Assembly (NCBI GenBank): GCA_030068525.1
Contig: JASJOS010000005.1
Location: 186,001 to 250,000 of the forward strand
Reading direction: 5' to 3'
Length of the DNA: 64,000 bases
DNA from: Xanthocytophaga flava
GTDB lineage: Bacteria; Bacteroidota; Bacteroidia; Cytophagales; 172606-1
Positions 1-17,768 of this stretch are shown here, in pieces (within the stretch, counting starts at the first letter, position 1; each line of letters starts with the position of its first letter). The notes beneath the pieces are model-generated. The model saw nothing but the letters and a program-made list of their open reading frames with translations. It ran no database searches and was not told where the DNA came from. The position numbers and the translations under genes were made by a program.

Positions 1-1
1 C

Positions 2-3036: not shown

Positions 3037-3051
3037 TGGTTGATAGACTAT

Positions 3052-3459
3052 CTATCCGGTTTGTCCATCTCTTAATTCTACAAGCTTATGAATGTTTTGA
3101 TTGATAGCTTCTACTACCTTTCCATTAATGTTGGTAATGCCTCCAGTAAAATAGAAACATATATGTGTGTCCTCATATGTCCATACCCTGCCTTGACCTT
3201 CCAATACATCGGGTAGCTTGATAAATAGAGGCGGATTAAGCAAAGCCGCTACTTGTTTATCTGTAAGCAAATGCCCTTTATTCCTTACTGTAAGCATGAT
3301 CCCAATTGAGGTATAAGAGTCGATGATCTGATCAGAAAGGATTTCTTTTACAGGAATAGGACCACCCTGAATACTAATATCTAACACCTCAAAATAGATT
3401 TCCTTTTTACCTGCTTTTATAGTAGCTATCTGGCCTTGATAGTCGTAAATGTGACTCAT
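3052..3459 (-). CDS. Hypothetical protein, 135 aa
   Basis: A 135-residue soluble protein predicted mainly beta (IYDYQGQIATIKAGKKEIYFEVLDISIQ; HICFYFTGGITNINGKVVEAI). It sits 33 bp downstream of the 188-residue gene on the same strand, so the two probably form a transcription unit. No known domain is recognised. Being co-oriented with the phage-derived genes it could be the leftmost cargo of the island, but it could also be chromosomal. Confidence 0.5.
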   Translation of the reverse strand: MSHIYDYQGQIATIKAGKKEIYFEVLDISIQGGPIPVKEILSDQIIDSYTSIGIMLTVRNKGHLLTDKQVAALLNPPLFIKLPDVLEGQGRVWTYEDTHICFYFTGGITNINGKVVEAINQNIHKLVELRDGQTG

Positions 3460-3492
3460 AGAATAACTATTCAGATCTACTTTTTATATTTT

Positions 3493-4059
3493 TCAATTTC
3501 GATATTCTTCAATCTGGTATTTTCTACCAATTAATTCGCATTTCTTGGTCACATTCCAGAAGGCAAACATAGTATCGCCCGTTGGCATATCCCAATATTT
3601 GATTTCTTCATCTGCAAGCATGATACCGAATGGGAGTATATGGCCTTTTTTTTTAGGATGGACAGGCCGCTCTAACAGACCAAGTAAAATACCTATCTTT
3701 CGTAATATACCTATCTTTCTTCTGGCAGTTTCTTCATCCCATAAAGGTCCTTCATGAAAGCGAAACTGCTCATATGGAATTTTTTCCAAAGAAGATTTCT
3801 TTATCTGGATAAAGTGTTCAGTTGTATTAAGAATCCATTCTTCTGGTCTTACTCTTGTCAGCAATACAGGTAATTCGTAGGTAGATAACTTAATCCTACT
3901 TAAAATAGTCTCTCTTTCCAGACCTGGTACTTTATCAAATAAGGTACAGCCTTCCTTTCCTTTGATAGCTTTCTGTTCAAGTCTGTAATATCTCAAATAC
4001 CAAAAAATTATTTGTTCTTTGATTCGACTTGCGCTTTTTACTATTCTTTCTGTTTCCAT
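3493..4059 (-). CDS. Hypothetical protein, 188 aa
   Basis: A 188-residue basic soluble protein starting at ATG 4059. The N-terminus is helical (SRIKEQIIFWYLRYYRLEQKAIKG), and the C-terminal half has two near-identical short segments, RKIGILRKIGILLGLLERP, then a strand-rich end (HILPFGIMLADEEIKYWDM). I do not recognise a family. It leads a two-gene unit with the downstream 135-residue gene. The 393 bp upstream are non-coding and contain hairpins. Confidence 0.5.
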   Translation of the reverse strand: METERIVKSASRIKEQIIFWYLRYYRLEQKAIKGKEGCTLFDKVPGLERETILSRIKLSTYELPVLLTRVRPEEWILNTTEHFIQIKKSSLEKIPYEQFRFHEGPLWDEETARRKIGILRKIGILLGLLERPVHPKKKGHILPFGIMLADEEIKYWDMPTGDTMFAFWNVTKKCELIGRKYQIEEYRN

Positions 4060-4197
4060 TTGTGTTTAGCCTCTGTTACTGGTGTATGTTCTTATGCAAA
4101 GAAATATTTAATTTCATAAAGAAAGCGAAAAGATAATAAATGAGTAGAACAGCAAAGAACCTTCTCAGAAAAAGCAGGATGTAAGCATAACCGACAC

Positions 4198-4229
4198 CCT
4201 CCTGAATATCGAGGTTCTTCATCAGGAGG
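4198..4229. other. Hairpin, 8-bp stem
   Basis: CCTCCTGA (4198-4205) and TCAGGAGG (4222-4229) form a perfect stem with a 16-nt loop. No T-run follows on either strand, so it is not a clear terminator. It lies in the 393-bp gap 4060-4452, which otherwise holds only the palindromes listed separately. Confidence 0.5.
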
Positions 4230-4242
4230 AAGGGGTCAGTCT

Positions 4243-4257
4243 CCCTCAACTTGAGGG
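4243..4257. repeat. Palindromic repeat CCCTCAA-C-TTGAGGG, copy 2
   Basis: The same 7-bp inverted repeat as at 3022-3036, in a similar flank (CTCCC before, GGGT...TGA after). It is 183 bp upstream of the start of the 188-residue minus-strand gene. Confidence 0.6.
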
Positions 4258-4408
4258 TAACTGAGAACTGATATAACTGTACATGTACTTCTGCTAAACA
4301 TGGTTTTATCCCATGTTATAACCAGTACGTGAATTCTACGAAGTGGTTTGACTAAGGTTTTAGTAAAGGGTCTGATTTGAAATTGTAGCCTTACTGTGAG
4401 AGTGAAAA

Positions 4409-4426
4409 ATACCTCATTTGAGGTAT
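4409..4426. repeat. Palindrome ATACCTCA-TT-TGAGGTAT
   Basis: A perfect 8-bp inverted repeat around TT. The CCTCA/TGAGG core is shared with the two palindromes at 3022 and 4243, suggesting a related protein-binding site. It lies just upstream of the truncated Tat-leader reading frame. Confidence 0.55.
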
Positions 4427-4452
4427 TGATCTTCTAGAACTTAAGGTAGAGA

Positions 4453-4647
4453 TTGCGTACTCTTTTTACCCAGTTATATGTAGAATTGAATTTGTCTGCT
4501 AAAGAAAAAAATAAAGGCAAGTTCAAACGCAGAAAATTTATTCAACTATCCACATGTACTTTTAGTTGGACGGTGTTTGGAGATTTATTTAAACCAACCC
4601 TTCTCCTACAGCAACCGCCTGTTTATACTCAATTTGATAAAACTTGA
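4453..4647 (+). pseudogene. Truncated Tat-leader reading frame
   Basis: A 64-residue frame (TTG start, or a lost upstream start) with a twin-arginine-like leader KRRKFIQLSTCTFSWTVFG followed by about 20 residues and a TGA stop. Only one codon separates it from the ATG of the next gene, and both are in the same frame. The simplest reading is the remnant of an exported protein whose body has been lost. It could instead be a short leader peptide, or a coincidence. Confidence 0.3.
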
Positions 4648-4650
4648 CTT

Positions 4651-5565
4651 ATGGATCCACAGGTAATTAAGCTTATTCAAAGAATATTAATGGAACTCAC
4701 AGGTATAGGTCTATTAATTTGGGGAATGGTTTTAATTATTAAAGGAATAACAGGTAGAATAACATTCTTATTAGAAGGGAAGGGTGCAAAGGTAAAGTTG
4801 GCGAATGCTAGTCCTGGCGTTTTTATTGCATTATTGGCATCTATATTAATCTGGTATTCAATACAGGATTTTACTATTACTAAAACCACTACCTCAAATG
4901 AGATAGATCCAATTCAGGTACTTGATCAATGGCTAGTAAATGCAAGTAGAGTTCAAGGAACAGAAAACTATATTGATAGGATTACGGCTGTTATTGGAAA
5001 AGACTCGAATTCTAGACTTAAACTAGAAACTATATTTATCCATCCAGCCATGTCAATAGCTGATATTGCAAAAAAACACTATGGAGATGAAAAATATTGG
5101 AAACTGATTGTTGTTGCAAATGCAGATAGAGGGGAGTTTGATATTAAACAAGTTCAACCAACTACTGTTTTACGCGATAGTGCCTTTTTAGAAATTTGGA
5201 AGGTATCAAGATATAATAGTTTAACTAGAAGTGAATTAATTCAAGTAAAAGCAGCAGATAAAAAAGCAGCATATCAAGAACTATTAAAGATGGCATCTAC
5301 TAAGCCTAACTATAAACCACTTGAACATATGGATGAATTAACTAAATACTATATGGAAAGAGAATTAGGTTTATTACAAACACCCGCAAATTTCTCTGGA
5401 GGAATAGAAACTATTGGAGAGCTAAGTTTAAAGTATTATGGAGATAAAAGCTTATGGCCTGTTATTGTTTGGACTAACCCAAAAGAGTTATCGTATGTGC
5501 GTTCTGCTGATGATAAAGTAAACAAGTCTACTCTTATATTTATTTTGCACTTTGGTCCATCCTGA
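4651..5565 (+). CDS. Membrane-anchored protein with two LysM-like repeats
   Basis: A 304-residue protein. Two hydrophobic segments lie at about residues 8-29 (ELTGIGLLIWGMVLIIKGI) and 52-69 (PGVFIALLASILIWYSI). After them come two LysM-like units: one near residues 130-180 (SIADIAKKHYGDEKYWKLIVVAN) and one near residues 252-285 (IGELSLKYYGDKSLWPVIVWTN). The repeated core (I/L)xx(A/L)xKxYGDxxxWxxIVxxN is visible in both. LysM-type modules usually bind peptidoglycan or other GlcNAc polymers, so an envelope-facing role is inferred. The gene is convergent with the tape measure gene, shares a terminator with it and opposes the phage genes, so it is probably cargo or host DNA rather than a virion component. 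Confidence 0.6.
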   Translation: MDPQVIKLIQRILMELTGIGLLIWGMVLIIKGITGRITFLLEGKGAKVKLANASPGVFIALLASILIWYSIQDFTITKTTTSNEIDPIQVLDQWLVNASRVQGTENYIDRITAVIGKDSNSRLKLETIFIHPAMSIADIAKKHYGDEKYWKLIVVANADRGEFDIKQVQPTTVLRDSAFLEIWKVSRYNSLTRSELIQVKAADKKAAYQELLKMASTKPNYKPLEHMDELTKYYMERELGLLQTPANFSGGIETIGELSLKYYGDKSLWPVIVWTNPKELSYVRSADDKVNKSTLIFILHFGPS

Positions 5566-5577
5566 AATCTTTCAGAA

Positions 5578-5610
5578 ATTAAAAAGAGCCAACTATCTGT
5601 CGGCTCCTTT
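5578..5610. terminator. Bidirectional terminator between LysM-like and tape measure genes
   Basis: AAAAAGAGCC.AAC and GT.GGCTCCTTT form a stem with one wobble around ATCT. On the minus strand the stem is followed by TTTTT, ending the tape measure transcript. It also lies 13 bp after the plus-strand gene. Confidence 0.65.
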
Positions 5611-5650
5611 ACTATGACACTCATCTATGGATTGTGAAACGGTACAGGTA

Positions 5651-8461
5651 TTACCCTCCTGTCTTCTGATTGCGCTTTTGTTCCTGTTCAAAAACAAATA
5701 CTAAGTCTCTACCTGACACAGTAGCTGTTCCTATGATATGAATATCTAGTTGCTGCGACCCAGTAGGAGATACGGCATTGACACTTACAGACTTTTGTAC
5801 CGCTTGTTGTGTTTGTTTGGTATCTATACCAGAAGAAAAACCAGAGGATAACGAAGGGGTCGAAGCGCCTGAACTTGAAGAACTTCCTGAAAGTCCTCTA
5901 CTGCCTATTGACTTAGCCACGCCTGCTAGAGCGACTAATGCAACACCTGCCGCTATAGCAGCATATGGATTTTCTATGAGTGTTTTAAATCTCTCAGAGG
6001 CAATACCTGCGGCTATCAAAGCCTTACCAAAAGCACTAAGGAAATTGGCTACTATATCCATAATCCCCTGGAAGAAGCTCCCTGCATTGAAATCACCCGT
6101 AAATAGTTTCCCCAGTTGTTCTCCCACAAAAACAGCCATTTGTTCCATCGACTGTTCTATAATCTTTCCAACCTCCACACTCCGTTCGCCTAATTGATTT
6201 AAAAAATCTCCTATTTGCATTCCGGAAGCCTGAAAACTGGTAGATAACGACTCTAAACTTATTCCCAACCGTTCACTTGCCTCTATGAGTCCCTGTGCTC
6301 CAACCACTCCAATATTTAACGAGTCTGCAAACCTTTGTATTTCCGGAACAATCGTTGAGGTACCTACCTGTATGCTTGCAAAGAACTCACTGAGTGATAA
6401 GCCCGATGCTTCAAACTGAGCCGTCAGTGTACCTACATCTATCTTTAAGATATTGGCTGCATTTTCCAGAGCCTGTTTTGCATTGAGTGTTCCATCTGTT
6501 AGTGAGGCAGATAACTCTTGTAACTCTTGTGCAACAGCAGACACATTACTTTCTATGGTTACCTGTACCTGCTGAATGACAGGCTTTGGTGTCTGTATTC
6601 TTTGTTGAATAGGCTGCGCTATCGGACTGGTAGCAGGTAGGGCATTTTTCTGTGCTTCTCCTAACATACCCAACTCCTTGATAAGCTTTTGCACAGCAGA
6701 TGACTGGGCATTAAAACCCGATTCTATCAGCGCAGAGATTCCCTTTTCTAATGCTTTTGCTCTTTCTCCTATGTAATCGTAGGAGGCGCCAAAGGCTTTG
6801 TTTTCTTCTTCTACCTGACGGAGCGAAAGACGCACTTTTTCCAAAGCTTTGATCATCTGATCTGTAAGAGCTTTGGTATTGTTAGCCGTTTGGGTTAATG
6901 CCTCATCAGAAGCCTCACGCATTCGATAATACTCTTCTGAGACGGCATCTACCTCTTCTTTGGTGGAATCAGACAGAGACGTAATCGTGAATTTGTACTG
7001 ATCGACAAAATCTTTCACTGTTTGGGTAGTATTCCGTAGTTTTTTAGCCAACGTACTGGACGGATCTATTTTCTCAATCACGCCTGCTATCAAATCCGGT
7101 AGATAGGTAATGGATCTTACAATCAGATCTAAAAGCAGGTTTACGGCTCCTTTCGCTATATTCAGTAAGGATTCCCACAATGCAGACCAGTCCCCACGCA
7201 AAAGGGCAGAAACAGCTTTGAATACATTGGCAATTACTGCAAATATATCTTTGAGGATAGGAAGTACAGCTCCAAATGTTTCACTAATCACAGGCACTAT
7301 AAAGGTTTTAAACCCAGACCATAGATCTTTAATAAGCCCTACCGCATAACCTATTACCACACCTAAAGCCTCTGTTATCTCTTTCACATACGGCTTAACA
7401 CCATCGAGAAACTTGCCTCCCTCTCCTGTTGTAAAGTAGGCTACAATACTATCCCAGTTATCAATAATCAAAGCCACTGCGGCTGCAATAGCGGCTACTA
7501 CCAATCCCACAGGACCTGATAGTGCGGTAAAGGCAGTAGATACCGTTCCAGCTCCTGCTACCAGGGTAGGAAACACAGCGACCAGTTTACCTATTACCAG
7601 TAATACAGGTCCGATAGCGGCTGCAATAGTACCTAGAACCACTACTACCTTTTGTACTACAGGGGAAAGACTTTCAAAGGCATCGACAATCCCTGTAATA
7701 AAGTTTTCCAGTTTAGGTAGGTTCTCCTGCAGATTAAAGGCTTTTGAAATGGCATTCCCAATCCGGGAAAGAGATTGTAAAATTGTATCTCCAATATTCT
7801 CAAAACTTGCGTTAATGCCTGCACTAGCTTTAGGAAGCTTACTTAATTCTTTGGTCGTCTTTTCGACAAATTCCTGTGCAGAGATACCTAGCTTTTGCAG
7901 ATCCTCCGAATTGGATGTACCAAACGCAGCCTGTATAGCCTTTCGGAACTGTGGTACTCTCTCTGCTATTTGATTGATTTCTTCTGCTGATATTTTCCCT
8001 TTGGAGGCTATTTGTGTCAATGCCAGGGTCACACCGTCTAAGTCAGCTTTGCCTTTTCCTACTACTGCCAGTGCATTACCAAAAGCCTGTAATGACTCTC
8101 TGGCTTGTTTGGCAGAAAATCCAGCCGCTTGCAGGTTGATAGATCCCTGTACAGCTTCTTTTAGTCCCAAACCAGGTAAACGGGCTACTTCTTTCAGTGC
8201 CTTTAGTTCCTGAGCTGCTTTCTCTGCGTCTCCTGTTACGGCAACAAGTCCCTTTTCCAACGCTTCCATATCTCCGGCCGCTTTAATAGAAGCACCTCCC
8301 AGCAACGTAAGAGGAACGGTTAAGTACTTGGAGAAACTTTCCCCCAAACCACTTAAACGGTCACCCAGACGCTCTAAATTTTTCCCAAGCTGGTCAACAC
8401 CCTGATCAAACTTATCCAGCGATAGCCCAATGGCTATATTTAATTCTGCAATTGTTGCCAT
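5651..8461 (-). CDS. Phage tail tape measure protein
   Basis: A 936-residue protein. The N-terminus (IGLSLDKFDQGVDQLGKNLE) and the following block (about 60-230: GDMEALEKGLVAVTGDAEKA, GLGLKEAVQGSINLQAAGFS, ISAEEINQIAERVPQFRKAI) are typical of the tape measure domain of tailed phages and phage-like elements. Hydrophobic stretches at about 265-330 and near residue 850 are usual for these proteins, which are threaded in the tail tube and inserted at infection. The middle is coiled coil and Gln/Ser-rich. At the usual ~1.5 angstrom per residue, 936 residues would specify a tail of roughly 140 nm (rule of thumb, not measured). It follows a tail assembly chaperone-like gene, as in phages, but no tube, baseplate or fibre gene accompanies it. 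Confidence 0.9.
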   Translation of the reverse strand: MATIAELNIAIGLSLDKFDQGVDQLGKNLERLGDRLSGLGESFSKYLTVPLTLLGGASIKAAGDMEALEKGLVAVTGDAEKAAQELKALKEVARLPGLGLKEAVQGSINLQAAGFSAKQARESLQAFGNALAVVGKGKADLDGVTLALTQIASKGKISAEEINQIAERVPQFRKAIQAAFGTSNSEDLQKLGISAQEFVEKTTKELSKLPKASAGINASFENIGDTILQSLSRIGNAISKAFNLQENLPKLENFITGIVDAFESLSPVVQKVVVVLGTIAAAIGPVLLVIGKLVAVFPTLVAGAGTVSTAFTALSGPVGLVVAAIAAAVALIIDNWDSIVAYFTTGEGGKFLDGVKPYVKEITEALGVVIGYAVGLIKDLWSGFKTFIVPVISETFGAVLPILKDIFAVIANVFKAVSALLRGDWSALWESLLNIAKGAVNLLLDLIVRSITYLPDLIAGVIEKIDPSSTLAKKLRNTTQTVKDFVDQYKFTITSLSDSTKEEVDAVSEEYYRMREASDEALTQTANNTKALTDQMIKALEKVRLSLRQVEEENKAFGASYDYIGERAKALEKGISALIESGFNAQSSAVQKLIKELGMLGEAQKNALPATSPIAQPIQQRIQTPKPVIQQVQVTIESNVSAVAQELQELSASLTDGTLNAKQALENAANILKIDVGTLTAQFEASGLSLSEFFASIQVGTSTIVPEIQRFADSLNIGVVGAQGLIEASERLGISLESLSTSFQASGMQIGDFLNQLGERSVEVGKIIEQSMEQMAVFVGEQLGKLFTGDFNAGSFFQGIMDIVANFLSAFGKALIAAGIASERFKTLIENPYAAIAAGVALVALAGVAKSIGSRGLSGSSSSSGASTPSLSSGFSSGIDTKQTQQAVQKSVSVNAVSPTGSQQLDIHIIGTATVSGRDLVFVFEQEQKRNQKTGG

Positions 8462-8502
8462 AGTTGTTCTTTACGTTATTTTCAATTAGCCACCTCTTTT
8501 AA

Positions 8503-8539
8503 TTTCCACACCTGATTTCCACACCTGATTTCCACATCA
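8503..8539. repeat. 13-bp tandem repeat, 2.8 copies
   Basis: TTTCCACACCTGA occurs twice head to tail and a third, partial and diverged copy (TTTCCACATCA) follows. It lies between the tail chaperone-like and tape measure genes. Confidence 0.8.
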
Positions 8540-8558
8540 TTTCTGCTCTATAAGGCAA

Positions 8559-8589
8559 CAGGTGCTCTATCATACTAATAGAACACCTG
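8559..8589. other. Hairpin downstream of the tail chaperone-like gene
   Basis: CAGGTGCTCTAT pairs with ATAGAACACCTG (one mismatch) around a 7-nt loop, just after the stop at 8600 on the minus strand. No T-run follows, so it is more likely an mRNA-processing or stability structure separating the chaperone-like and tape measure genes than a terminator. Confidence 0.55.
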
Positions 8590-8599
8590 TATAAGCAGA

Positions 8600-9010
8600 C
8601 TACTCTGATACAGTCTTTGCCAGGGTACTACTTTCCATCTGTGGAAGTTGTTCCTTTAGAAGGCTTTCAATCGTATTACCCATTAGCTTTGATTGTAGAA
8701 ACGTCTCAATGATATCGTTAACTGTCTGAGCTTCCATCTCGCCAAACCATTCCAGACATTGTCCCCGGGTAAAGTCAGGCTTTTCTCCAGCAATTTCGCA
8801 GTTAGCTACTGCGGCACAGTAGATCATGTCAGAAATCATTCGCGGAGATTTAAGGCTGCTTTCTGTTAATGTTTCGCCTAACTGATTCATTGATATTCCG
8901 TAAAGCTCAGTGAGTAATTGCCAAAAGTTCATCCCAAACTTTAATCCCAGCTTGTGTCCACAAACCTGAATCTGAATGTATCCGTTAGCGGGTCCGTTTT
9001 TAGTAGCCAT
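8600..9010 (-). CDS. Tail assembly chaperone-like protein
   Basis: A 136-residue acidic protein. Its start (GYIQIQVCGHKLGLKFGMNFWQLL) is a short beta region followed by helices, with GEKPDFTRGQCLEWFGEME in the middle. This layout, the size and above all the position immediately before the tape measure gene match the small tail assembly chaperones (gpG/GTA-type) that coat the tape measure during tail assembly. The sequence signal alone is modest. I looked for a programmed frameshift extension towards the tape measure gene, as in lambda G/GT, and saw no convincing slippery site; the stop is 138 bp from the next start. Confidence 0.6.
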   Translation of the reverse strand: MATKNGPANGYIQIQVCGHKLGLKFGMNFWQLLTELYGISMNQLGETLTESSLKSPRMISDMIYCAAVANCEIAGEKPDFTRGQCLEWFGEMEAQTVNDIIETFLQSKLMGNTIESLLKEQLPQMESSTLAKTVSE

Positions 9011-9088
9011 AGTCTTATGTATTAATAGTTTTATGTATTAGATGTGTTGATAATAATTGATCATTTGTTGCCTATTCTATTCAGGCAG

Positions 9089-9343
9089 CTATTGAAATCT
9101 ATTTGCCATAGTTTCTACACAGTGAGAGGCCAGTGTTCCCATCTTTTTGAATACCGATAGCATGTCTGTAGGTGGTTCTTCTGCACTTTCTTTGATATGC
9201 TGAAAGGCAGTAGCGCAGATATTTTGTCTTTGTCTGAAACCAGTTAATGCAGCATCAAGCGTACTTTTCACCTGTGCTATAGTTACCTGTTCCATGGTTA
9301 GTTGTGCCATAGTTACCGGTGTTTTTGTTTCTGGTGTTTCCAT
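9089..9343 (-). CDS. Hypothetical protein, 84 aa
   Basis: An 84-residue protein. The first ~25 residues are low-complexity with a repeated pattern (PVTMAQLTMEQVTIAQV), then a helical part with two Cys (NICATAF, ASHCVETMA). It lies between the small paralogous pair and the tail chaperone-like gene, all on the same strand. No family is recognised. Confidence 0.45.
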   Translation of the reverse strand: METPETKTPVTMAQLTMEQVTIAQVKSTLDAALTGFRQRQNICATAFQHIKESAEEPPTDMLSVFKKMGTLASHCVETMANRFQ

Positions 9344-9418
9344 AGGTTTGTTTTGTTTAATTTGTTTAAGATGATTGCTGTTAGAAAGTATGTATTCTGT
9401 ATGTCTGTTTTAGTCCAA

Positions 9419-9745
9419 TTACACGCCCTCTTCTTTGTGTGCATTGGACCCCTTTGGCGCAATGACAGTGATCTGAGCAATAGTAAAGCGTTTTTCCAGT
9501 TTTGCCTTTTGCTCTTCCCATTCCACAACTTGCATTTCTTTTTTTAACAAGCCGGTTTTCTTTGAAGGTGGCAGAGTAAGAGAAACCTGTTCGTCATGGA
9601 TTAGTGCGATGATATAGGGTTTGTTCTCATTGCCTGTTAGTTCTTGGAGGAACTGTTCAGCACTTGTAATTTTGCCTCTGACAAGCCTTTTTAAGGTATC
9701 TGAGGCATTTGATTTATTCTTTCTTGTTTTCATTCTCATTTTCAA
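9419..9745 (-). CDS. Hypothetical phage-island protein, paralogue of its neighbour
   Basis: A 108-residue basic protein. An N-terminal helix pair (SDTLKRLVRGKITSAEQFLQEL) is followed by strands and a C-terminal EWEEQKAKLEKRFTIAQITVI. The 90-residue protein encoded 6 bp upstream has the same order of elements (LKQIAMGKLTRKEATNLL, then EWESARNKYREVLDINKIVL), so the two look like diverged tandem paralogues. Function unknown; position between terS and the tail chaperone-like gene is where small head or neck genes often lie in phages. Confidence 0.5.
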   Translation of the reverse strand: MKMRMKTRKNKSNASDTLKRLVRGKITSAEQFLQELTGNENKPYIIALIHDEQVSLTLPPSKKTGLLKKEMQVVEWEEQKAKLEKRFTIAQITVIAPKGSNAHKEEGV

Positions 9746-9751
9746 GGTTGA

Positions 9752-10024
9752 TTACATGTATGTCTCTAAAGCCTGATCCAATCCATCAGAAAGGACGATT
9801 TTGTTTATATCAAGGACTTCCCTGTATTTGTTTCTGGCAGATTCCCACTCTGAATCGTTATAGACTTCTTTGACGCCGTGATTATTCTCAATGGTGTGGG
9901 TATCTTTTTCCAGGTCAATAGTATAAGTGTATTCCACAGGGGTAAGTAAGTTAGTAGCCTCTTTTCTGGTTAGTTTGCCCATGGCAATCTGTTTAAGTGC
10001 CCTGCGTATGTTTGAATTTTTCAT
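9752..10024 (-). CDS. Hypothetical phage-island protein, paralogue of its neighbour
   Basis: A 90-residue protein starting at ATG 10024, 7 bp after the terminase small subunit gene, so certainly in its operon. It has a short basic helix (NIRRALKQIAMGKLTRKEAT), a beta segment (YTYTIDLEKDTHTIENNHG) and an amphipathic helix with the EW motif shared with the next gene. No known family recognised. Confidence 0.5.
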   Translation of the reverse strand: MKNSNIRRALKQIAMGKLTRKEATNLLTPVEYTYTIDLEKDTHTIENNHGVKEVYNDSEWESARNKYREVLDINKIVLSDGLDQALETYM

Positions 10025-10031
10025 TGTTGTC

Positions 10032-10631: not shown

Positions 10632-10702
10632 CGTATCAGGTATTGAATTTTATGTATCTTTGTTATGACACTCCTTGGTGAGTGTATTATTCAACTGTAT
10701 TG

Positions 10703-10733
10703 AAAACCCCGTTTTCAGTGGAGACAGGGTTTT
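10703..10733. terminator. Intrinsic terminator after the 284-residue gene
   Basis: AAAACCC (10703-10709) pairs with GGGTTTT (10727-10733); on the minus strand the arm ends in TTTT. It separates the replication-side genes from the TerS unit, suggesting that terS has its own promoter. Confidence 0.55.
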
Positions 10734-10746
10734 CCTTTTCTGCTTC

Positions 10747-11601
10747 TTAGTGGAGAAATCCGAAAGTGACTGTTTTGATTTGCTGTACGAACTGCAACAT
10801 CTGAGAGTACTCTTCCTTATGGTCCTGATCTAGACTGAGTGACTCAAATAGTTCTCTCACTTGGAATCCTGTTTCAATCGCTTCACTGAACAGATCTGCA
10901 ATGCTCTCATTTCGGATATCCGTATTCATCTCTGCTTCTACTGTATCTGCCAGTGTCATAGGCTCCATGTCTCCTGATTCATTCTGCCTATAAGGTTGCA
11001 GGTCTATTCCTTGTTTTGCCAGAAATTTGAAGGGAGAGAAATCGGATTCATTACGAACCATCAGCAGAAAGTCTGCATAGTCTTGCGCTCTACTGGTACC
11101 TAATCCCTCACCTCTGACTTCACAGTTTTTGCCCTCTTCATGATAGTTGCCTCCAATGTATGAGGATAAATTAGAGTGAAGCGTATAGGATTTGATACTT
11201 TCCCAGTCTTCTTTGTAGCGTATAGAGCCATCTTCATTATAATCTTTGTCATCCCCTCCAAACTCTTCTATAGAAAGCATACGTTCCTGCGTGGCATAGG
11301 CTTTCCAGTCTGCTGTGTACTCATCAAAGTACTTGATTAAATGTTTCTCTACTTCCAGAGTAGCGCTATGAAACTGTCTGAGACCATTGGAAAGGATCGC
11401 TAACTGATAGTGTCTTTCAAAGCGGGTATAAGCATCATAAATACTTTCTGTATCTACCTTTTCCCGGTCAATAGAAGCATTGTGTACTTTCATTGAGTAG
11501 TAAATCGGATCATGGGTAATGTCAATGATAGAAAGGCTATTCATGAAGGCGTTGAATAGTTTAGCCAGTGGAGTATCGGATTTGATAGACTTGAGTCGCA
11601 T
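10747..11601 (-). CDS. Hypothetical protein, 284 aa
   Basis: A 284-residue acidic, mostly helical soluble protein. It contains an acidic loop (EFGGDDKDYNEDGSIRYKED) and a glycine-containing centre (YIGGNYHEEGKNCEVRGEGL). No membrane segment, signal peptide or known motif is seen, and I do not recognise a family. It lies between the primase module and terS, with a terminator behind it. Confidence 0.5.
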   Translation of the reverse strand: MRLKSIKSDTPLAKLFNAFMNSLSIIDITHDPIYYSMKVHNASIDREKVDTESIYDAYTRFERHYQLAILSNGLRQFHSATLEVEKHLIKYFDEYTADWKAYATQERMLSIEEFGGDDKDYNEDGSIRYKEDWESIKSYTLHSNLSSYIGGNYHEEGKNCEVRGEGLGTSRAQDYADFLLMVRNESDFSPFKFLAKQGIDLQPYRQNESGDMEPMTLADTVEAEMNTDIRNESIADLFSEAIETGFQVRELFESLSLDQDHKEEYSQMLQFVQQIKTVTFGFLH

Positions 11602-11642
11602 AGTATTGTGTGTTTTATGTGTGAATGATTTTGAGTCAATGA

Positions 11643-11813
11643 TTAGAATGGAAGAATGTGGTTATAGCCAGTATGCAGGCAATGCACTATCGTTTCACCT
11701 GCTCCTGTATCGTAGAAGATATTATTGCTATCTCTTCCGACTTCAGTTAGAAGATCATGGAATATCAGATTATTGATAGCCAGTTGTAAGGCATCGTTTA
11801 AAACTTCGTTCAT
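11643..11813 (-). CDS. Small protein, 56 aa, overlapping the DUF6371 gene
   Basis: Begins at ATG 11813, sharing the four bases ATGA with the stop of the DUF6371 gene, which indicates translational coupling. The product starts MNEVLNDALQLAINNLIFHD and ends HTGYNHILPF. It is soluble and helical at the N-terminus; no family is recognised. The ATGA junction and full use of an otherwise empty 208-bp gap are the main support. Confidence 0.55.
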   Translation of the reverse strand: MNEVLNDALQLAINNLIFHDLLTEVGRDSNNIFYDTGAGETIVHCLHTGYNHILPF

Positions 11814-12871
11814 GCTGCTTGCTGTATTAAGGGTGTGGGAGAGGATTCTTGTTCGTTATTGACTTGTTCGTTATTGACTTGTTCACTATTGAAAGGTATG
11901 TCCCATTCTTTGGGATAAGACCAGAATTCGAGATAGTTAAATCGGAGTAGGTAGTCTGCCAGATCAAGCCCTTTCTCTCGTTCCTCATCTGTGGCTATGG
12001 TTTCGAGAAGATCTGATACTATTACATTGGAAAAGTCTTTTGTTGTCTCTTTCCATTTTTCGTATCCATTCAGATCCGGAAACAAGATCACTTTTCTATC
12101 CTGGAAAGGTTGTAATCGTTCAGATTTGAGAGTCGATAACCCACCACAGGCAAGCCAGATAAAATCGTAGAAGTAGAGACTGGCTATTACGGCTGTCTTT
12201 TCGCTTTCCACGATGGCAACAGGTTTATCAGAGGGTTCTATATCTAACAGGTGTTCACCAAAGAAGCATTGTTTCAGATGAAAGTCTTCCAGTTTGAGAA
12301 TGGAATGCACCCAATGCACATGGTTGAAAGGTTGCTTTACCCGTTTGCCCGTAGCACGATCATAGAGCATTACTTTACCGGCTCTGGCTTGCCATTCTGT
12401 ATCCAGTTGCCAGAACACAGTTGCACCCGGCCAATATCTGGAAGTACCTATACAATACTTTTTTACCAGATCCTCTGCCTGGGTAGCCCCAAACCTGTCA
12501 AACAGGAAAAGCACAAATGCATTGGTCAAATAAGCTTTTTCATGAAAGGATGCCTCTACAATCTGTTGATCTATGTACGAGGGTTCAACTGTGCTTTTTG
12601 GCAAAAGTGACGGAAGTGATGCAAGTGACGCTTGGGAAAAACATTTATTTTCATTCTCACCTGTTTGAGGGTTATCCTGAAAGTATTGTTTAGGTGTATA
12701 ATGGTAACCACAATTAGACTCTCTATTACATCTTCCTGTAGTATCACTGAGATATTCGCCTGTCTCTGTAGAAATGTATTTGGCAAAGGTCTTTTTCCCT
12801 CCACAGACAGGACAATCATATCTGTTTGCTTTTGTTTGATAGGGTTCGAGTATGTATTTATAGTCTTTCAT
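11810..12871 (-). CDS. DUF6371 primase-like zinc-ribbon/Toprim protein
   Basis: A 353-residue protein. An N-terminal zinc ribbon CPVCGGKKTF...CNRESNCGYH (about residues 20-60) resembles DnaG-type primases. The later segment VAIVESEKTAVIASLYFYDF and the acidic VILFPDLNGYEKW correspond to the Toprim E and DxD positions. This combination matches DUF6371 proteins of Bacteroidota mobile elements. The ATG at 12871 (MKDYKYILEPYQ) is chosen because family members begin this way; an alternative GTG at 12916 would translate 9-bp iterons as QVTQVTV. It follows the SF3 helicase gene and is coupled to a 56-residue gene. Role in island replication is inferred. Confidence 0.75.
   Translation of the reverse strand: MKDYKYILEPYQTKANRYDCPVCGGKKTFAKYISTETGEYLSDTTGRCNRESNCGYHYTPKQYFQDNPQTGENENKCFSQASLASLPSLLPKSTVEPSYIDQQIVEASFHEKAYLTNAFVLFLFDRFGATQAEDLVKKYCIGTSRYWPGATVFWQLDTEWQARAGKVMLYDRATGKRVKQPFNHVHWVHSILKLEDFHLKQCFFGEHLLDIEPSDKPVAIVESEKTAVIASLYFYDFIWLACGGLSTLKSERLQPFQDRKVILFPDLNGYEKWKETTKDFSNVIVSDLLETIATDEEREKGLDLADYLLRFNYLEFWSYPKEWDIPFNSEQVNNEQVNNEQESSPTPLIQQAA
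12605..12631. repeat. Iteron cluster A: three 9-bp AAGTGACGC units
   Basis: Three head-to-tail units on the plus strand (AAGTGACGG, AAGTGATGC, AAGTGACGC) inside the DUF6371 gene, where they encode the repetitive SLASLPSL-like segment. An inverted cluster lies 260 bp away at 12892-12918. Confidence 0.7.
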
Positions 12872-12891
12872 AAGAAAAATGTTTTTTTGGA

Positions 12892-12918
12892 CTGTCACTT
12901 GCGTCACTTGCGTCACTT
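12892..12918. repeat. Iteron cluster B: three 9-bp units, inverted
   Basis: CTGTCACTT, GCGTCACTT and GCGTCACTT, the reverse complement of the AAGTGACGC unit, fill the gap between the SF3 helicase stop (12920) and the DUF6371 ATG (12871). Together with cluster A this is a candidate replication origin of the island. Confidence 0.7.
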
Positions 12919-12919
12919 T

Positions 12920-14344
12920 TTAGATTATGATTACTCTTTTGATGAATACTACCTTTCCGATATTCCTTTTGATAGATTGATATCCTGCTGCTTCCAGTCT
13001 TTTGAGCAGGTTTTTTAAGCTGACAGGCTTGTATCCGTCCAGAGTGCAATACGATTTATATTCAGCATACAGGTCTTGCAGGGGCGTATTGTCTTCTGAT
13101 TTCTGGTAGTTGTGATCTTCCAGAAACATCAGTACTGAATCGGATTCTTTGCGATATTGTCCAACGGCTTTCTCTGCCAGTTCACAATAGGTAAAATTCT
13201 TGTTGGTTAGTAGTCTATCTAATCCGTCCAACACCCAGTTGAGTACACCGGATAATTCATTCTCTATAATTCGTCTGGCTAATGTTTTATCTTGTTTGGA
13301 TTCAGGAATAGTGACTGTAAAAGGAAGAATCAGAAAGCGCCGAAAGAAGGCGTTAGTCTGTTCAGTATCTCGCGGTAGTTCGTTACTATTGAAAATCAGT
13401 TTTGCATAGCGGTTAATGACAAAGGGTCTGCCATAGGGAAGGCGTGCTTCTACAGGCTCACCTGATACAAGCTGTTTGAATGTTGAGGCTTCTAGCTTGT
13501 CATTTATCTCAGAGGCATAGTTTACCAGTCTATTGGCAATCATTGCCCGGTAGTATCCATTGTCATTCGTCAGAGACTGCAGTGTATAGTTGGATACATT
13601 CTCAATCCCAAACAAAGCGGTCACAATCTCAAAGACAACACTTTTTCCATTGGCTCCAGGACCAAATAAGATCAACGCCTTTTCTAACTTTAATCCATTG
13701 GTAAAGATGTATCCCAGGTATTCTGCCAGTACATATTGAGCTGATTGATCAGGTAATACCTCGTCGAGAAACCGTTGAAAAATGGGTGCTTTGGCTGTTG
13801 GATCGTAAGCAAACGTAAGGATATAGGTTAGAAAGTCTTCTGCTTTGTGCACTCTGGGTTTTACCCCTTTGGAAGTAATTTCCAGTGTATAATTCTGTGT
13901 ATTGAGTAAGACTACATCTGTGTTTGTATTCGGCTCTGGTAAGTTTGAGACAGCCAGAAACTGTTGCAATAACTCATTTCTGAACCGATGGTGTTCTGCT
14001 TCTATACTGGGTATACCCATTTTAGCAGCTGCTTTCCCTAAAAACTCAGTCAGATCTGGTTCATTTAGTAAAGACCAGTTCTTTCCATTGTAGACATAGA
14101 TAAAATCATGTCGTTTACAGAGTCCCCAGTTATGTACTTTGGCTACCCGTAATACTTCCCGGATAACCAGTACAACAATCTGTTTCTGATTCAGCTTTTC
14201 ATCTTCTCCTAAACTTGCCTGGTCGCGAAAGTTGACCTCGACAAACTTTGTACATAGAGCATTCAATAAATCTCTATGCTGTAAGGTGTATTCCTTTTTG
14301 TATTCCAGCAAACCATTCAGGTGAGTGCGGATCTGTTCAGACAT
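12920..14344 (-). CDS. P4/D5-type primase-helicase (SF3 helicase)
   Basis: A 474-residue protein from ATG 14344 (a GTG at 14359 would add five residues and overlap the preceding gene by 11 bp). The centre carries the Walker A motif ILFGPGANGKSVVFE, followed by the SF3 features (LVNYASEINDKLEASTFKQLVSGEPVEARLPYG; AKLIFNSNELP; FFRRFLILPF), and a C-terminal winged-helix region. This is the D5-N/Pox-D5 helicase found in phage/plasmid primases of the P4 family. The polymerising primase domain is not fused here and may be supplied by the DUF6371 protein next door. It should unwind the origin of the island; the iterons lie at its 3' end. Confidence 0.85.
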   Translation of the reverse strand: MSEQIRTHLNGLLEYKKEYTLQHRDLLNALCTKFVEVNFRDQASLGEDEKLNQKQIVVLVIREVLRVAKVHNWGLCKRHDFIYVYNGKNWSLLNEPDLTEFLGKAAAKMGIPSIEAEHHRFRNELLQQFLAVSNLPEPNTNTDVVLLNTQNYTLEITSKGVKPRVHKAEDFLTYILTFAYDPTAKAPIFQRFLDEVLPDQSAQYVLAEYLGYIFTNGLKLEKALILFGPGANGKSVVFEIVTALFGIENVSNYTLQSLTNDNGYYRAMIANRLVNYASEINDKLEASTFKQLVSGEPVEARLPYGRPFVINRYAKLIFNSNELPRDTEQTNAFFRRFLILPFTVTIPESKQDKTLARRIIENELSGVLNWVLDGLDRLLTNKNFTYCELAEKAVGQYRKESDSVLMFLEDHNYQKSEDNTPLQDLYAEYKSYCTLDGYKPVSLKNLLKRLEAAGYQSIKRNIGKVVFIKRVIII

Positions 14345-14348
14345 GGTT

Positions 14349-14537
14349 TCATTTTCCACTCACCACCTCCTCTCGAATCTGAGTCAGGATACGTTCGACC
14401 TCTCCGGTGGTCAAACCGAATTTGCTGGCAATAAACTTTTTTCCACTTTCTGAGAAGTAGGTTCCGTATGGGCTGGTAGTGGCATGTTTCAGGCAATACG
14501 CTTTGCATTGCTGTTGAATAGTAGTATCTTTGTTCAT
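14349..14537 (-). CDS. Small hypothetical protein, 62 aa
   Basis: A 62-residue basic protein starting at ATG 14537 and ending 4 bp before the SF3 helicase ATG. Its C-terminal part (SGKKFIASKFGLTTGEVERI) resembles a short helix-turn-helix, suggesting DNA binding, but no family is recognised. A competing frame at 14317-14508 is less plausible in composition. Confidence 0.5.
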   Translation of the reverse strand: MNKDTTIQQQCKAYCLKHATTSPYGTYFSESGKKFIASKFGLTTGEVERILTQIREEVVSGK

Positions 14538-14562
14538 CTCGTCCCCGTTTTCGTTTAAAAAT

Positions 14563-14602
14563 CTTCTGCCCTTGCGTCTAGTCCACGTTTGGGCTTTTTT
14601 TA
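14563..14602 (-). terminator. Possible weak terminator after the HTH gene
   Basis: GCCC...GGGC arms with partial internal pairing lie between the HTH gene and the 62-residue gene; T-runs occur on both sides. Pairing is imperfect, so this is tentative. Confidence 0.3.
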
Positions 14603-14606
14603 TTTC

Positions 14607-14936
14607 TTAGGAAATAGTGGAAAGTGCAGAAGTCTTTTTGCGAAGAGTGTTCTTTCGTTCGAAACGAGGATCTAGCTTCATAGCCGCGTTAACCTCACTG
14701 AGAAGATAGAATTTGCGGTTGCTAATCCAACGCGCAGGAAGTAAGCCTTGATTTTCCCATACAGAGATTGTAGCAATGGATACATCAAGAGCTTTTGCAA
14801 GTTCAGAGGCTTTTAGTGGCTTTTCTGCTCCCATGCTTGTGGAAGATGTGTTCTGGCGCAAAAATTCTGTAAAGCAATCGATAAAAATGTCCTTGATATC
14901 GGACACTGACATGGTTGTGAGGATGGTCTTTTCCAT
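14607..14936 (-). CDS. MerR/excisionase-like helix-turn-helix protein
   Basis: A 109-residue protein from ATG 14936 (a TTG at 14957 would add seven residues). Residues ~40-90 contain PLKASELAKALDVSIATISV then WENQGLLPARWISNRKFYLL, the winged-helix DNA-binding signature of the HTH_17/excisionase-like group, in which the recognition helix is followed by a wing with a basic patch. In integrative elements such genes act as excisionase or as control proteins for int and replication. It lies downstream of integrase and the 450-residue gene, and a perfect 15-bp inverted repeat sits just upstream of it, a natural operator candidate. Confidence 0.75.
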   Translation of the reverse strand: MEKTILTTMSVSDIKDIFIDCFTEFLRQNTSSTSMGAEKPLKASELAKALDVSIATISVWENQGLLPARWISNRKFYLLSEVNAAMKLDPRFERKNTLRKKTSALSTIS

Positions 14937-14979
14937 ATTTTGTCGTTGTTTCAACAAAAGTATGGAGATGCATTGGTAG

Positions 14980-15019
14980 CTATCGAACGTATCGGAGGTT
15001 TGTTCGATACGTTCGATAG
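14980..15019. promoter_or_regulatory. Perfect 15-bp inverted repeat, operator candidate
   Basis: CTATCGAACGTATCG (14980-14994) and CGATACGTTCGATAG (15005-15019) are perfect reverse complements around a 10-nt spacer. The site lies 44 bp upstream of the HTH gene and directly past the stop of the 450-residue gene. No T-run follows on either strand, which favours a protein-binding site over a terminator. The CGTAT/ATACG half-site also occurs in the inverted repeat upstream of the integrase. Confidence 0.65.
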
Positions 15020-15024
15020 AAGGT

Positions 15025-16377
15025 TTATAGCAATTTTATTGCTGTACTAAATCTTGTTTCATAAATATCATATATGTTACTCTGTTGTTTCCTAAATAGT
15101 CCTTCTGCACTATTGAAGTTATGGACTCTGGCATTAATAAGATTGGATAAAATTAAATCACTAGGCCTTTTTATGATAGGATGGCCATTTTTTTTTGTCT
15201 TTTCTAAGACATCTATAAAAGCTACAATTGATTGCTTTTTACGCTCGCCTAATGTATAAATCCAATCGGAGCTAACTGGAGCATCTTCTACACTTATTAA
15301 TAGTGATAAATATGATTGAGCTTTTTCTGGATTTACAAAAATATCCTCCAATAGCTGAGGTTCGTTGATTTGCTTTTTAGGAGAAAGCAATAAGCTATTT
15401 ACATAGTGACGCTTTTTTATTAATAAGATCTTATTCCAAGAATCATACATATAGTTTTCTAAAGCTTTACCTTCCCTGTAAGGCATTATTGATAAGACAG
15501 TATCTAATCCATCAATTAGCTTTTCTGAACTCTCATAGCAAGAGTCTATAAGTAGCATATTGTTCTTCTCTGCTAGTTTTAAGTCTTCTTTTCTTATAGT
15601 CTCAATTTCCTCATGTAGGATTTTCTCTTTTTGGGATGGATAATTGGCAAGTTTTGTTTCTAGATGACCTTTATATATTTTAAAGTTTACTTCTCCTATG
15701 TGAATTAAACGCTCTGCAAATAATTCTACAGTTGGATACTTTGTTGTTGGCAATATCTCCATTAATGTCTGTGCCTCACAAAACTCTATAAGTTGACGCT
15801 CTTTCTCTTCTTCTTCTAAAATCAGAGGAAATACATTTATGAGAATGCTTAATAGTTTAATACTGGATTCAAGGACAAAGACTTTAGAGATAGAAGACTT
15901 TAAATCCTGTAGACGCATATATTGTCGATCTGTTTGATCTATAATTGAGAAATCTCGTTTTTGATAAACAATTGTATCATCATACCACTGTTGATTTCTC
16001 TCAATTACTTTTGTTAGTTCTGCTATTTTTAACTGTAATAACCTGTCCTTGTCTTCAGATGCATCATACACCTTTTTAAATTCCTCAAAAGAATAAAAGG
16101 CTAACATCTCAATTTTTTGAAAATAAAGCTCTTTACGTTTTTCTTCTATCTTATTCCACTCCTCTTCGCTAACCAACACCTTGAATACTTCCTTATCCTG
16201 GAGATATACACCAGCAGTTTCTCCTTTTTCCCATTTCACGTAGGCACCCTCAGGCCTTTTGTTTTCCCAATCTTCAAAAGTTAGCGTCTTAGGTTTCAGT
16301 ACTTTCAATTGAACAGTTTTTGTTTCACCATTTTCCTGGTAACTATAATCCATATATTTCTCTTCCATAGTTGTCAT
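15025..16377 (-). CDS. Hypothetical 450-residue protein coupled to the integrase
   Basis: Starts within the integrase stop (TAATG, one shared base), so it is translationally coupled to it. The 450-residue product is soluble, very rich in Lys, Glu and Leu, with long predicted helices and coiled-coil segments (about 75-130, 175-215 and 235-280). A C-terminal block (SDWIYTLGERKKQSIVAFID, then RPSDLILSNLINARVHNFNS) looks like a small helical DNA-binding or interaction domain. No catalytic motif is apparent and I do not recognise a family. Base composition is more AT-rich than the adjacent genes. It may be accessory cargo (for example defence or exclusion) or a recombination factor; nothing in the sequence decides. 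Confidence 0.55.
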   Translation of the reverse strand: MTTMEEKYMDYSYQENGETKTVQLKVLKPKTLTFEDWENKRPEGAYVKWEKGETAGVYLQDKEVFKVLVSEEEWNKIEEKRKELYFQKIEMLAFYSFEEFKKVYDASEDKDRLLQLKIAELTKVIERNQQWYDDTIVYQKRDFSIIDQTDRQYMRLQDLKSSISKVFVLESSIKLLSILINVFPLILEEEEKERQLIEFCEAQTLMEILPTTKYPTVELFAERLIHIGEVNFKIYKGHLETKLANYPSQKEKILHEEIETIRKEDLKLAEKNNMLLIDSCYESSEKLIDGLDTVLSIMPYREGKALENYMYDSWNKILLIKKRHYVNSLLLSPKKQINEPQLLEDIFVNPEKAQSYLSLLISVEDAPVSSDWIYTLGERKKQSIVAFIDVLEKTKKNGHPIIKRPSDLILSNLINARVHNFNSAEGLFRKQQSNIYDIYETRFSTAIKLL

Positions 16378-17642
16378 TAAATAGCTTTCTTTAATACTTC
16401 CGGCATTTCATTCACTTTCGAAAACTCTTTCATTACCTGATCATCCGTAATAGAGATGTACCGCTTAAAACTCTTGTAGTCTTTGTGACCACTGATAGCC
16501 ATTACAATCTGAGGCCTAAGACCTTTCTCCAGGGAGAGTGTCACGAAGCTTTTTCTCCCACTGTGAGATCCCAGCAGCTTCCATTTAGGTACCGTCTTAC
16601 ATATCCTCTCCCCTCCTCTGAATAATACCTTCTCTGTAGGTGCGTTGATCTGTGCCAGTTCACACACTTCTTTGATGTAATCATTCAGTCTCTGATTGGA
16701 GATAGGTCTTACCAGTCCTGCCAGGTATAAATCAATTATCTGTCTGGCATTGGCAGTAAGTGGTATAGAAAGGTTCTGTTTGGTTTTATGGGTAATGATA
16801 CGCAGGTGATCAGGCCGCACATGCTCTGGACGAATAGAGGATAGATCACCATAACGCAGACCCGTATAGATACCCAGCAAAAACAGATTGCGGGCATTTT
16901 CCAGATACGTCTTATTTGCAGGGATAGTCAGGTTTTCCAATTGCTCTACCTCTTCTGCAGTCAAGGCAATCACAGGTGTTTCTTTCCTCTGCCAGTTGAA
17001 CTTCTTATTCTGATAACCCAGATTACTGTTATAACCTCGCTCTGTAGCAAAGGTCAATATCCGCTTTAGTGTACTGATCTGTTTGGCAATGGTATTGTCA
17101 GTTAGCTTTACTTTATTAAGCAAATAGGTAGTAAACTTGTCAAAGAAACGCAGGTCAATAGTATCAAAAGAGACAGTCTCCTTTTTTGCCTTTTCAAAAC
17201 TACGAAGATGATTTTCCAGGGCTCTGTAAACCTGAGCACTTCGTTCTTTCCCTTTGGCTTCTGCAATGGTTACAAAGTCACTGAATACATCCCATAACGT
17301 GGTAATCCTTACAGGAACAGTTTCTTCCTCTTCTATTTCAAGGTGTATAGACTCCCGTAAGTCATTATCATTGGGAATTACCCCTCTCACTTTGCAAGCT
17401 GTATAGAACTCCCACAGTTTGGCTGCGTACAGTTCCAACAGTCGGTTTAACCGGACATTGCTGGCAAAGCCACGAGTAAAGGCTTTCTGATCATCAAAGT
17501 TCCACTGTCCGGGATCAATAGATTCTCCGGTGTAAATCTTGGTACGTGTCTTATCGTGGATAAAGAGTAGAATAATAGGTGTAGGCTTTTTGCTGTTCTT
17601 ATCTTTTAGAACAAACGTCACTCCCCTTGGCAAGGAACTCAT
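16377..17642 (-). CDS. Tyrosine recombinase / integrase
   Basis: A 421-residue phage-type integrase of the Bacteroidota family with an N-terminal arm-binding domain (~1-85), a SAM-like core-binding domain (~115-205) and a C-terminal catalytic domain. The catalytic set is complete: R263 (TGLRYGD), H360-x-x-R363 (HSGRKSF), H386 (SGHKDYKSFKRY) and nucleophile Y395. It integrates and excises the island at an attachment site that should lie close to its 5' end, near 17.65-18.35 kb. It is co-transcribed with the coupled 450-residue gene. An inverted repeat (17664-17694) lies 22 bp upstream of its start. Confidence 0.92.
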   Translation of the reverse strand: MSSLPRGVTFVLKDKNSKKPTPIILLFIHDKTRTKIYTGESIDPGQWNFDDQKAFTRGFASNVRLNRLLELYAAKLWEFYTACKVRGVIPNDNDLRESIHLEIEEEETVPVRITTLWDVFSDFVTIAEAKGKERSAQVYRALENHLRSFEKAKKETVSFDTIDLRFFDKFTTYLLNKVKLTDNTIAKQISTLKRILTFATERGYNSNLGYQNKKFNWQRKETPVIALTAEEVEQLENLTIPANKTYLENARNLFLLGIYTGLRYGDLSSIRPEHVRPDHLRIITHKTKQNLSIPLTANARQIIDLYLAGLVRPISNQRLNDYIKEVCELAQINAPTEKVLFRGGERICKTVPKWKLLGSHSGRKSFVTLSLEKGLRPQIVMAISGHKDYKSFKRYISITDDQVMKEFSKVNEMPEVLKKAI

Positions 17643-17663
17643 TCAGTATATTTGGTTTGTTTT

Positions 17664-17694: not shown

Positions 17695-17714
17695 TTGTTC
17701 CCCAATAAGAAAAG

Positions 17715-17738: not shown

Positions 17739-17768
17739 TTCTTCAGATTAACTAGAACTCACCTAAGA

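Follow-up and report, generated by a model that had tools for sequence, protein, structure and literature searches.

What is an island that encodes a terminase small subunit (TerS) and a tape measure protein (TMP) next to its own integrase and replication genes, and in which no head, tail tube or lysis gene can be recognised? The question is raised by a stretch of 64,000 nucleotides from Xanthocytophaga flava (the window, G000:C55:186001-250000); Xanthocytophaga is a genus of the Rhodocytophagaceae, order Cytophagales. Judged by its genes, the element under study, W, is probably a phage satellite: it would replicate with its own helicase-primase, tag its DNA by TerS for the motor of a helper phage and shape the helper's tail with its own tail assembly chaperone (TAC) and TMP. 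A first-pass annotation of the DNA had suggested that the island may be a satellite of Bacteroidota which brings its own TerS and in addition a TMP. This proposal was supported by relatives of W, by an empty insertion site, by exchanged TMP families and by recurring head-less islands with integrase and TMP.

Insertion site and borders

W is inserted in tRNA-Ser(GGA) on contig C55 of the Xanthocytophaga-type genome G000. ARAGORN placed the tRNA at C55:180868-180955 (L005:14868-14955), and its last 13 bases (L005:14943-14955) are repeated just past the integrase. The congener X. agilis (G002) has the same tRNA site empty, with tRNA-Ser directly joined to its terminator and right flank; the tRNA side of the match ends at C5:213739 and the right side starts at C5:213737 (94% and 82% identity). 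The repeat and the empty site together show that W is an insertion of 22.9 kb, which begins at the 3' end of the tRNA at C55:180943 (window -5057), so that its left 5 kb lie outside the window. Its real limits, window -5057 to 17865, replace the limits of 3052 to 17642 drawn in the first-pass annotation. A full prophage at this locus, by which W would have been recognised as a deletion derivative, was not seen in the sister species, where the site is empty instead. A 21-bp arm-like repeat inside each end of W is likely the arm site of the integrase. W thus is a discrete chromosomal insertion between attachment (att) repeats with its own integrase, as is characteristic of satellites.

1..17865, no strand: portion of W within the window (from tRNA-Ser, the 13-bp repeat and the empty site in G002)
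17853..17865, plus strand: attR, 13-bp copy of the tRNA-Ser 3' end with the original tRNA terminator next to it (repeat comparison)
17717..17737, plus strand: arm-like repeat with two GGGGACA boxes; 20 of 21 bases recur just inside attL at L005:15000-15020

Packaging, tail and replication genes of W

The 29 distinct open reading frames (ORFs) of W were scanned with Pfam and PHROGs. Starting from the integrase the order is integrase, a 450-aa unknown protein, a helix-turn-helix (HTH) regulator, D5 helicase, a Zn-ribbon/DUF6371 protein, a 284-aa protein, TerS, three small ORFs, the TAC-like protein, TMP and cargo.

16377..17642, minus strand: tyrosine integrase, 421 aa (PF13102, PF00589)
15025..16377, minus strand: 450-aa protein adjoining the integrase, no significant family in Pfam/PHROGs and none in PADLOC
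14607..14957, minus strand: HTH (MerR/Xis-like) regulator, 116 aa (phrog_66, E 1.9e-7)
14463..14564, minus strand: block of about 100 bp at the head of the replication module, kept in W and the elements A, B and C described below; overlaps a 62-aa ORF at 14349-14537 (DNA comparison)
12920..14359, minus strand: D5-type SF3 helicase, 479 aa, 95% identical in element C (PF08706, PF19263, PF03288)
11810..12916, minus strand: Zn-ribbon and DUF6371 protein, 368 aa, likely the primase partner (PF19898, PF21957)
10747..11601, minus strand: 284-aa protein, the anchor gene common to W, A, B and C (sequence comparison)
10032..10631, minus strand: TerS, 199 aa (PF03592, 112 bits)
9752..10024, minus strand: 90-aa protein between TerS and TAC, no significant family in Pfam/PHROGs
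9419..9745, minus strand: 108-aa protein, 39% identical to the ORF directly before the TMP gene in element B (sequence comparison)
9089..9343, minus strand: 84-aa protein, no family in Pfam/PHROGs
8600..9010, minus strand: TAC-like protein, 136 aa (phrog_183, E 3e-4)
5651..8461, minus strand: TMP, 936 aa (PF20155, 84 bits, E 1.5e-23; phrog_12798, E 4.5e-42)

The integrase, SF3 helicase-primase, TerS, tail chaperone-like protein and TMP of 936 residues that had been named from the sequence are thus all present, open and on the minus strand. The co-directional arrangement described from the integrase to the TMP gene held; the cargo left of the TMP gene lies on mixed strands. No capsid, portal, terminase large subunit (TerL), tube or lysis gene was assigned among the 29 ORFs, in agreement with the earlier description. 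W has its own replication and regulation genes and too few virion genes for a particle, as expected of a satellite, and without the recognised portal, capsid, TerL, tube and lysis genes of a complete temperate phage (Caudoviricetes). The TMP is full-length: the TMP domain at the N-terminus and a C-terminal motif of phage type are both retained; a sequence search against the PDB returned no match to it.

The TAC-like protein had been called tail chaperone-like from the start, an assignment that was weak as long as it relied on the phrog_183 match. It gained from homologues located 0.1-0.4 kb upstream of TMP in five phage loci (E 3e-5 to 0.04) and from its predicted model. In a viral fold library the top four matches of this model were uncharacterised proteins of uncultured phages, and annotated tail assembly chaperones came in at rank 5 (E 4e-3) and below, with some proteins annotated as tail tube among them. 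A fold search of the PDB gave no match, the protein showed no similarity to the annotated chaperone of phage FPSV-S18, and no slippery heptamer was found when a frameshift extension was looked for. Between the TAC and TMP genes, at window ~8500-8536, there are three short TGTGGAAAT-type repeats spaced 12-14 bases.

Mosaic relatives of W

The 284-aa gene led to three more elements, A (G000:C1, about 98.2-124.9 kb, L013 and L014, in the same genome as W), B (G002:C4) and C (G002:C16). The gene had no relative in public genome-contig or viral-contig collections; a large protein search matched two other proteins, and prophage L173 holds a distant homologue. Its predicted structure was uninformative (pLDDT 44). 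A weak match in G017 (E 8e-4) was dropped, its surroundings looking like tryptophan-synthesis and other housekeeping genes.

Element C, at tRNA-Leu(CAA), is bounded by 15-bp repeats and measures 20.1 kb; no convincing att sites were found for A and B. W and C have 3.9 kb of replication and 284-aa module in common at 86% DNA identity, while C differs from W in integrase, TerS type and TMP. A and B have a different replication module in common (4.2 kb, 92% identity). What W has in common with these two is the 284-aa gene and the ~100-bp block and, with B, also the 3' part of TerS. The block shows 75-78% identity between W and A and between W and B, and in C it is part of the longer match; it is conserved although the replication modules differ, and is possibly a shared operator or origin.

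Downstream of the 284-aa gene all four elements carry a TerS-family gene followed by an exchanged tail cassette. B has TerS and a 785-aa TMP of another family (phrog_26804 and phrog_5062), and C has a phrog_83-type TerS with an 807-aa TMP (phrog_1533). A has TerS, a 395-aa TerL (ATPase-like motifs, judged by eye) and a 730-aa protein that matches an 821-residue gene of Elizabethkingia phage TCUEAP1 (26% over 40%), located there between the terminase genes and the TMP gene. A fifth element, L198 (G000:C60), is without the 284-aa gene and has an integrase, D5 (49% to W), DUF6371 (81%), TerS (34%) and the 730-aa protein (97.5% to A). TerS is present in all five elements and neither capsid nor portal was recognised in any of them. 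The same architecture with different flanks, which the first-pass annotation had suggested to look for, was therefore found in A, B, C and L198. To judge by these comparisons, W is one of a family of mosaic elements that all have TerS and among which the tail gene has been exchanged.

The ratio of nonsynonymous to synonymous substitutions (dN/dS) across 17 gene pairs was 0.02-0.49, with 0.07-0.14 for the backbone genes: 0.09-0.14 for the 284-aa gene, 0.07-0.11 for D5 and D5-like genes and 0.09 for DUF6371. The value for TerS was 0.28. In a DUF6371 island of G000 a 608-aa protein (L205:9151-10977) occupies the slot after a 134-aa ORF and has no phage match; PDB sequence searches of this and the 730-aa protein gave no match.

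Islands with integrase and TMP in Cytophagales

TMP_3 occurred at 96 places in 61 of the 390 genomes of the order. We examined 66 of these places, 60 as 20-kb stretches (shorter at contig ends) and six of the host family at other lengths. To find head genes we used models built on annotated Bacteroidota phages, and also shared gene families, by which Mu-like heads were added; the models came from nine phage records, so divergent capsids can be missed. Defined as a same-strand integrase upstream of TMP with no recognised head gene between, such islands numbered 11 of 66 (L142, L143, L149, L153, L155, L166, L167, W, B, C and D), L142 and L143 being from one genome and having the same TMP domain. 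L129, L134 and L157 are similar, with TerL or a missing end, and stand outside the 11. Left uncounted were L131, L135, L136, L150, L152, L160, L168 and L177, in which neither head genes nor an integrase were seen. Set aside as ambiguous were L125 (integrase upstream of TMP and a post-TMP tail gene) and L159, L161 and L164 (integrase-TerS-TerL-TMP and post-TMP tail genes); L118 and L119 were not recognised by the TMP models used.

W, C, L149 (13.3 kb), L153 (12.1 kb) and D (9.7 kb) are each delimited by exact att repeats; sites were sought for L142, L143, L155, L167 and L129 (five of eight loci) and none was convincing. The ORFs of the att-bounded islands, part of which were run against PHROGs, gave replication, ParB-like and unknown matches and no head gene.

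A quick tree of 142 TMP domains contained several long branches, and some of its phage rows may be unrecognised satellites. Its 15 satellite rows, among which F, L129, L134 and L157 are less certain, needed 13 label changes, at least 10 of them forced by well-supported branches. Thus, the satellite TMPs do not form one lineage. Shuffling the labels required 14.5 changes on average, and 54 of 500 shuffles were as low as 13. By score the closest relative was on the phage side for 11 of the 15 satellite TMPs.

Two sets of loci bear on the origin of the cassettes. L166 has the order integrase-D5-DUF6371-TerS-TAC-TMP. The full prophages L172 and L176, the latter from the same genus, contain homologues of its TerS, small ORF, TAC, ORF before TMP and TMP, arranged in the same order. 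The TMPs are 47-50% alike over ~400 aa. The prophages additionally hold TerL (assigned by position), portal, protease and capsid genes, and L166 skips the genes between. Going by gene order, L166 would be the clearest case of capture from a phage. L134 (C17) of genome G286, a TerS-TerL-TMP locus in which no head gene was recognised, occurs alongside a full prophage (L137, C54). Their TerS, TerL and TMP are 55%, 85% and 71% alike, and TerL and TMP are 10.5 kb apart in the prophage versus 0.5 kb in L134. The two form a candidate natural satellite/helper pair.

Accessory genes

Among the cargo left of the TMP gene are two HTH genes, an HSDR_N nuclease-like gene and genes for a leucine-rich-repeat and a WYL_2 protein at the left end; the ORFs that lie within the window are the following.

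4651..5565, plus strand: 304-aa accessory ORF with LysM-like repeats (weak phrog_7145 and phrog_380 matches)
3493..4059, minus strand: 188-aa accessory ORF, 98% identical over 140 aa in element B (sequence comparison)
3052..3459, minus strand: 135-aa accessory ORF, no significant family in Pfam/PHROGs
2092..2763, plus strand: 223-aa accessory ORF, 93% identical in element A (sequence comparison)
1568..1915, plus strand: 115-aa accessory ORF (ORF list)
777..1478, plus strand: 233-aa accessory ORF (ORF list)
1..745, plus strand: 3' part of the 364-aa HSDR_N nuclease-like gene, which starts at window -349; 99% identical in element C

The 304-aa ORF is possibly cargo; its only matches are weak, cover ~30 residues and fall in baseplate-wedge and endolysin families (E ~1e-4). 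The HSDR_N nuclease-like gene (window -349..745 compared with C16:178351-179445) had a dN/dS of 0.02, the lowest of the 17 pairs. The leucine-rich-repeat gene is 99% identical between W (L005:18208-18870) and element A (C1:120747-121409) in the same genome, which suggests recent exchange.

Weighing the explanations

Several results weigh against W being a satellite that shapes the tail of a helper. DUF6371 occurred at 101 places in 82 of the 390 genomes, and only six of these places had a TMP_3 place within ~10 kb (by visual comparison). A recognised TMP was found in none of 20 other DUF6371 places sampled, two of which were shortened by contig ends. The small number of DUF6371 islands with TMP indicates that TMP is an optional part of an island backbone that occurs more widely. 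The helper prophage sharing TerS and TMP homologues that the first-pass annotation had called for was sought and not found. TerS, TAC and TMP of W were not close to those of any single phage compared; the nearest of the TMPs, from contig L049 (53-55% across the N-terminal domain), was paired with a TerS of another type, and W TerS had no match in 80 viral loci. TAC is weak in sequence, its predicted model is of low confidence (pLDDT 62), and searching 5.8 billion proteins brought up no second TAC protein. None of the genes of W could be identified as serving capsid redirection or helper induction, and 22.9 kb exceeds the typical size of satellites.

As to the helper, a TMP_3 search of eight genomes gave W itself as the only convincing match in G000; a second match there, a 717-aa frame, was read as a chemotaxis receptor. 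When four genomes were searched for TerL with phrog_2, even the TerL of element A escaped detection; the negatives of this search therefore count for little and a helper is possible.

L201, L204, L207 and L213 are integrase-HTH-D5-DUF6371 islands without TMP, several with restriction- or defence-like cargo (by eye). In these four of six islands inspected in full, DUF6371 has as its neighbour a small, basic KGQSGNP.GRP-type protein, which we take to be the TerS-associated DUF5681. By their gene content, islands of this type are a wider family in Cytophagales.

If TMP and TAC served for interference, W would be a defence-bearing integrative element that poisons the tail assembly of infecting phages and is itself transferred via the TMP of a helper or by another route. 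We regard this as unlikely. Inhibition of tail assembly is a known satellite-borne defence (Tai, in the available text of PMC11364771), many islands with the same primase seem, as read from sequence, to carry defence-like cargo and no TMP, and W has its HSDR_N nuclease-like gene. Yet the TMP of W is complete from its N-terminal domain to its C-terminal motif and is grouped with TAC and TerS in phage-like order, TerS accompanying it in the Xanthocytophaga relatives. In addition, PADLOC gave one marginal and no convincing defence match for 10 island proteins.

That W is a prophage remnant, left after deletion of head, tube and lysis genes, a reading for which the first-pass annotation had allowed, is very improbable. 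TMP, TAC and TerS are phage-derived, and the common genes of L134 and L137 are 80-86% alike in DNA, which deletion fits as well as capture. However, the five related elements are without the same genes and yet hold different TMP/TerS types in one slot, the site in the congener is empty and the satellite TMPs are scattered in the TMP tree. All named genes are open, in line with the earlier remark that the phage-like genes show no frameshifts or fragments, and dN/dS was well under 1 for the compared genes. Purifying selection on the backbone makes a decayed prophage unlikely.

We give equally little credence to an integrative mobilisable element, moved by conjugation, that acquired TerS and TMP by chance. 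In the order one often meets island families that share this primase and have no TMP, but no relaxase or mobilisation family was present in the Pfam/PHROGs results for the 29 ORFs, and chance does not explain the TerS of W, A, B, C and L198. A domesticated tail-like particle or gene-transfer-agent locus, which tail genes without head genes might suggest, is hardly credible in view of the integrase, att sites and replication genes and of the scans of W, in which no tube, sheath, baseplate or fibre gene was found.

Proposed mode of action

Taken as a satellite, W would excise and replicate upon helper infection, using its own helicase-primase. The helper need not be resident. TerS would tag W DNA for the TerL of the helper, leading to packaging into helper capsids. 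The TMP, together with TAC, would be built into chimeric tails, the tail tube of the helper being made to the specification of W. By analogy we infer that the TMP may set the length or the identity of the tail; tail length might matter for DNA delivery or for escape from tail-directed defence.

More tentatively, and with some doubt on our part, Cytophagales may hold a large mosaic class of tail-piracy satellites. These would consist of an integrase-replication backbone and exchangeable packaging/tail cassettes (TerS, TMP and chaperone, or TerS, TerL and a TMP-neighbour tail protein) repeatedly captured from different helpers, with the TMP as the signature of their own particles. If this were true the helper would be redirected at the tail and not at the capsid. 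The same trick would have arisen many times in another phylum without capsid genes, and control of the tail would be one general way in which phages are parasitised. The pairs L134/L137 and L166/L172 and L176 let one ask why a parasite needs its own TMP; tail length, DNA delivery, escape from anti-tail defence and particle identity are possible reasons.

Comparison with known satellites

Like PICI/SaPI elements, W is a discrete insertion that combines integrase, regulators, primase/helicase and terS with accessory cargo; integrase, regulator, primase and terS are all found in the one element. With 22.9 kb W is outside the ~10-15 kb given for PICI/SaPI in the available text of PMC11364771. Unlike them, W carries TAC and TMP. 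PICI/SaPI have Stl- or AlpA-type control and capsid-redirection or helper-interference genes; W has HTH/Xis-like regulators, and general Pfam/PHROGs models, which are not PICI-specific, matched no capsid-redirection family in it. Some cf-PICIs are reported to have putative tmp genes like W (PMC12987554), but they encode capsid/head-assembly genes, none of which was recognised in W. The minimalist PICMI satellites resemble W in being integrated elements without capsid-remodelling genes (available part of PMC10803314), whereas W is much larger than a small PICMI and carries tail genes.

The closest parallel are the PLE satellites of Vibrio cholerae, parasites of ICP1, which make chimeric tails from their own TAC and TMP and in which deletion of tmp lowers transduction by 96 to 99.9% (PMC12987554). 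Satellite-borne TMP was first reported in March 2026 for one Vibrio family, and the authors noted putative tmp in PLE-like elements and cf-PICIs. A Bacteroidota satellite with TMP was not among the matches listed for open-licence PMC full text, a collection largely without preprints and subscription journals. PLE have, like W, a TMP with a neighbouring TAC and no capsid gene; their function has been shown, while that of W is deduced from its genes. TMP and TAC of PLE occur in exchangeable types like the tail cassettes of the W relatives, and the baseplate hub protein of PLE11 is comparable to the TMP-neighbour tail protein in A and L198. Genes analogous to the tac and tmp of PLE are thus present in W, a TMP in B and C, and another tail gene in A and L198. 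Unlike PLE, W resides in Bacteroidota and has a Terminase_2-type TerS, a D5 helicase with the DUF6371 protein and a tyrosine integrase at a tRNA; the PLE integrase is a large serine recombinase. Thus we favor the view that W is a Bacteroidota variant of the recently discovered PLE principle, which would work here in another phylum, with other genes and with another packaging module.

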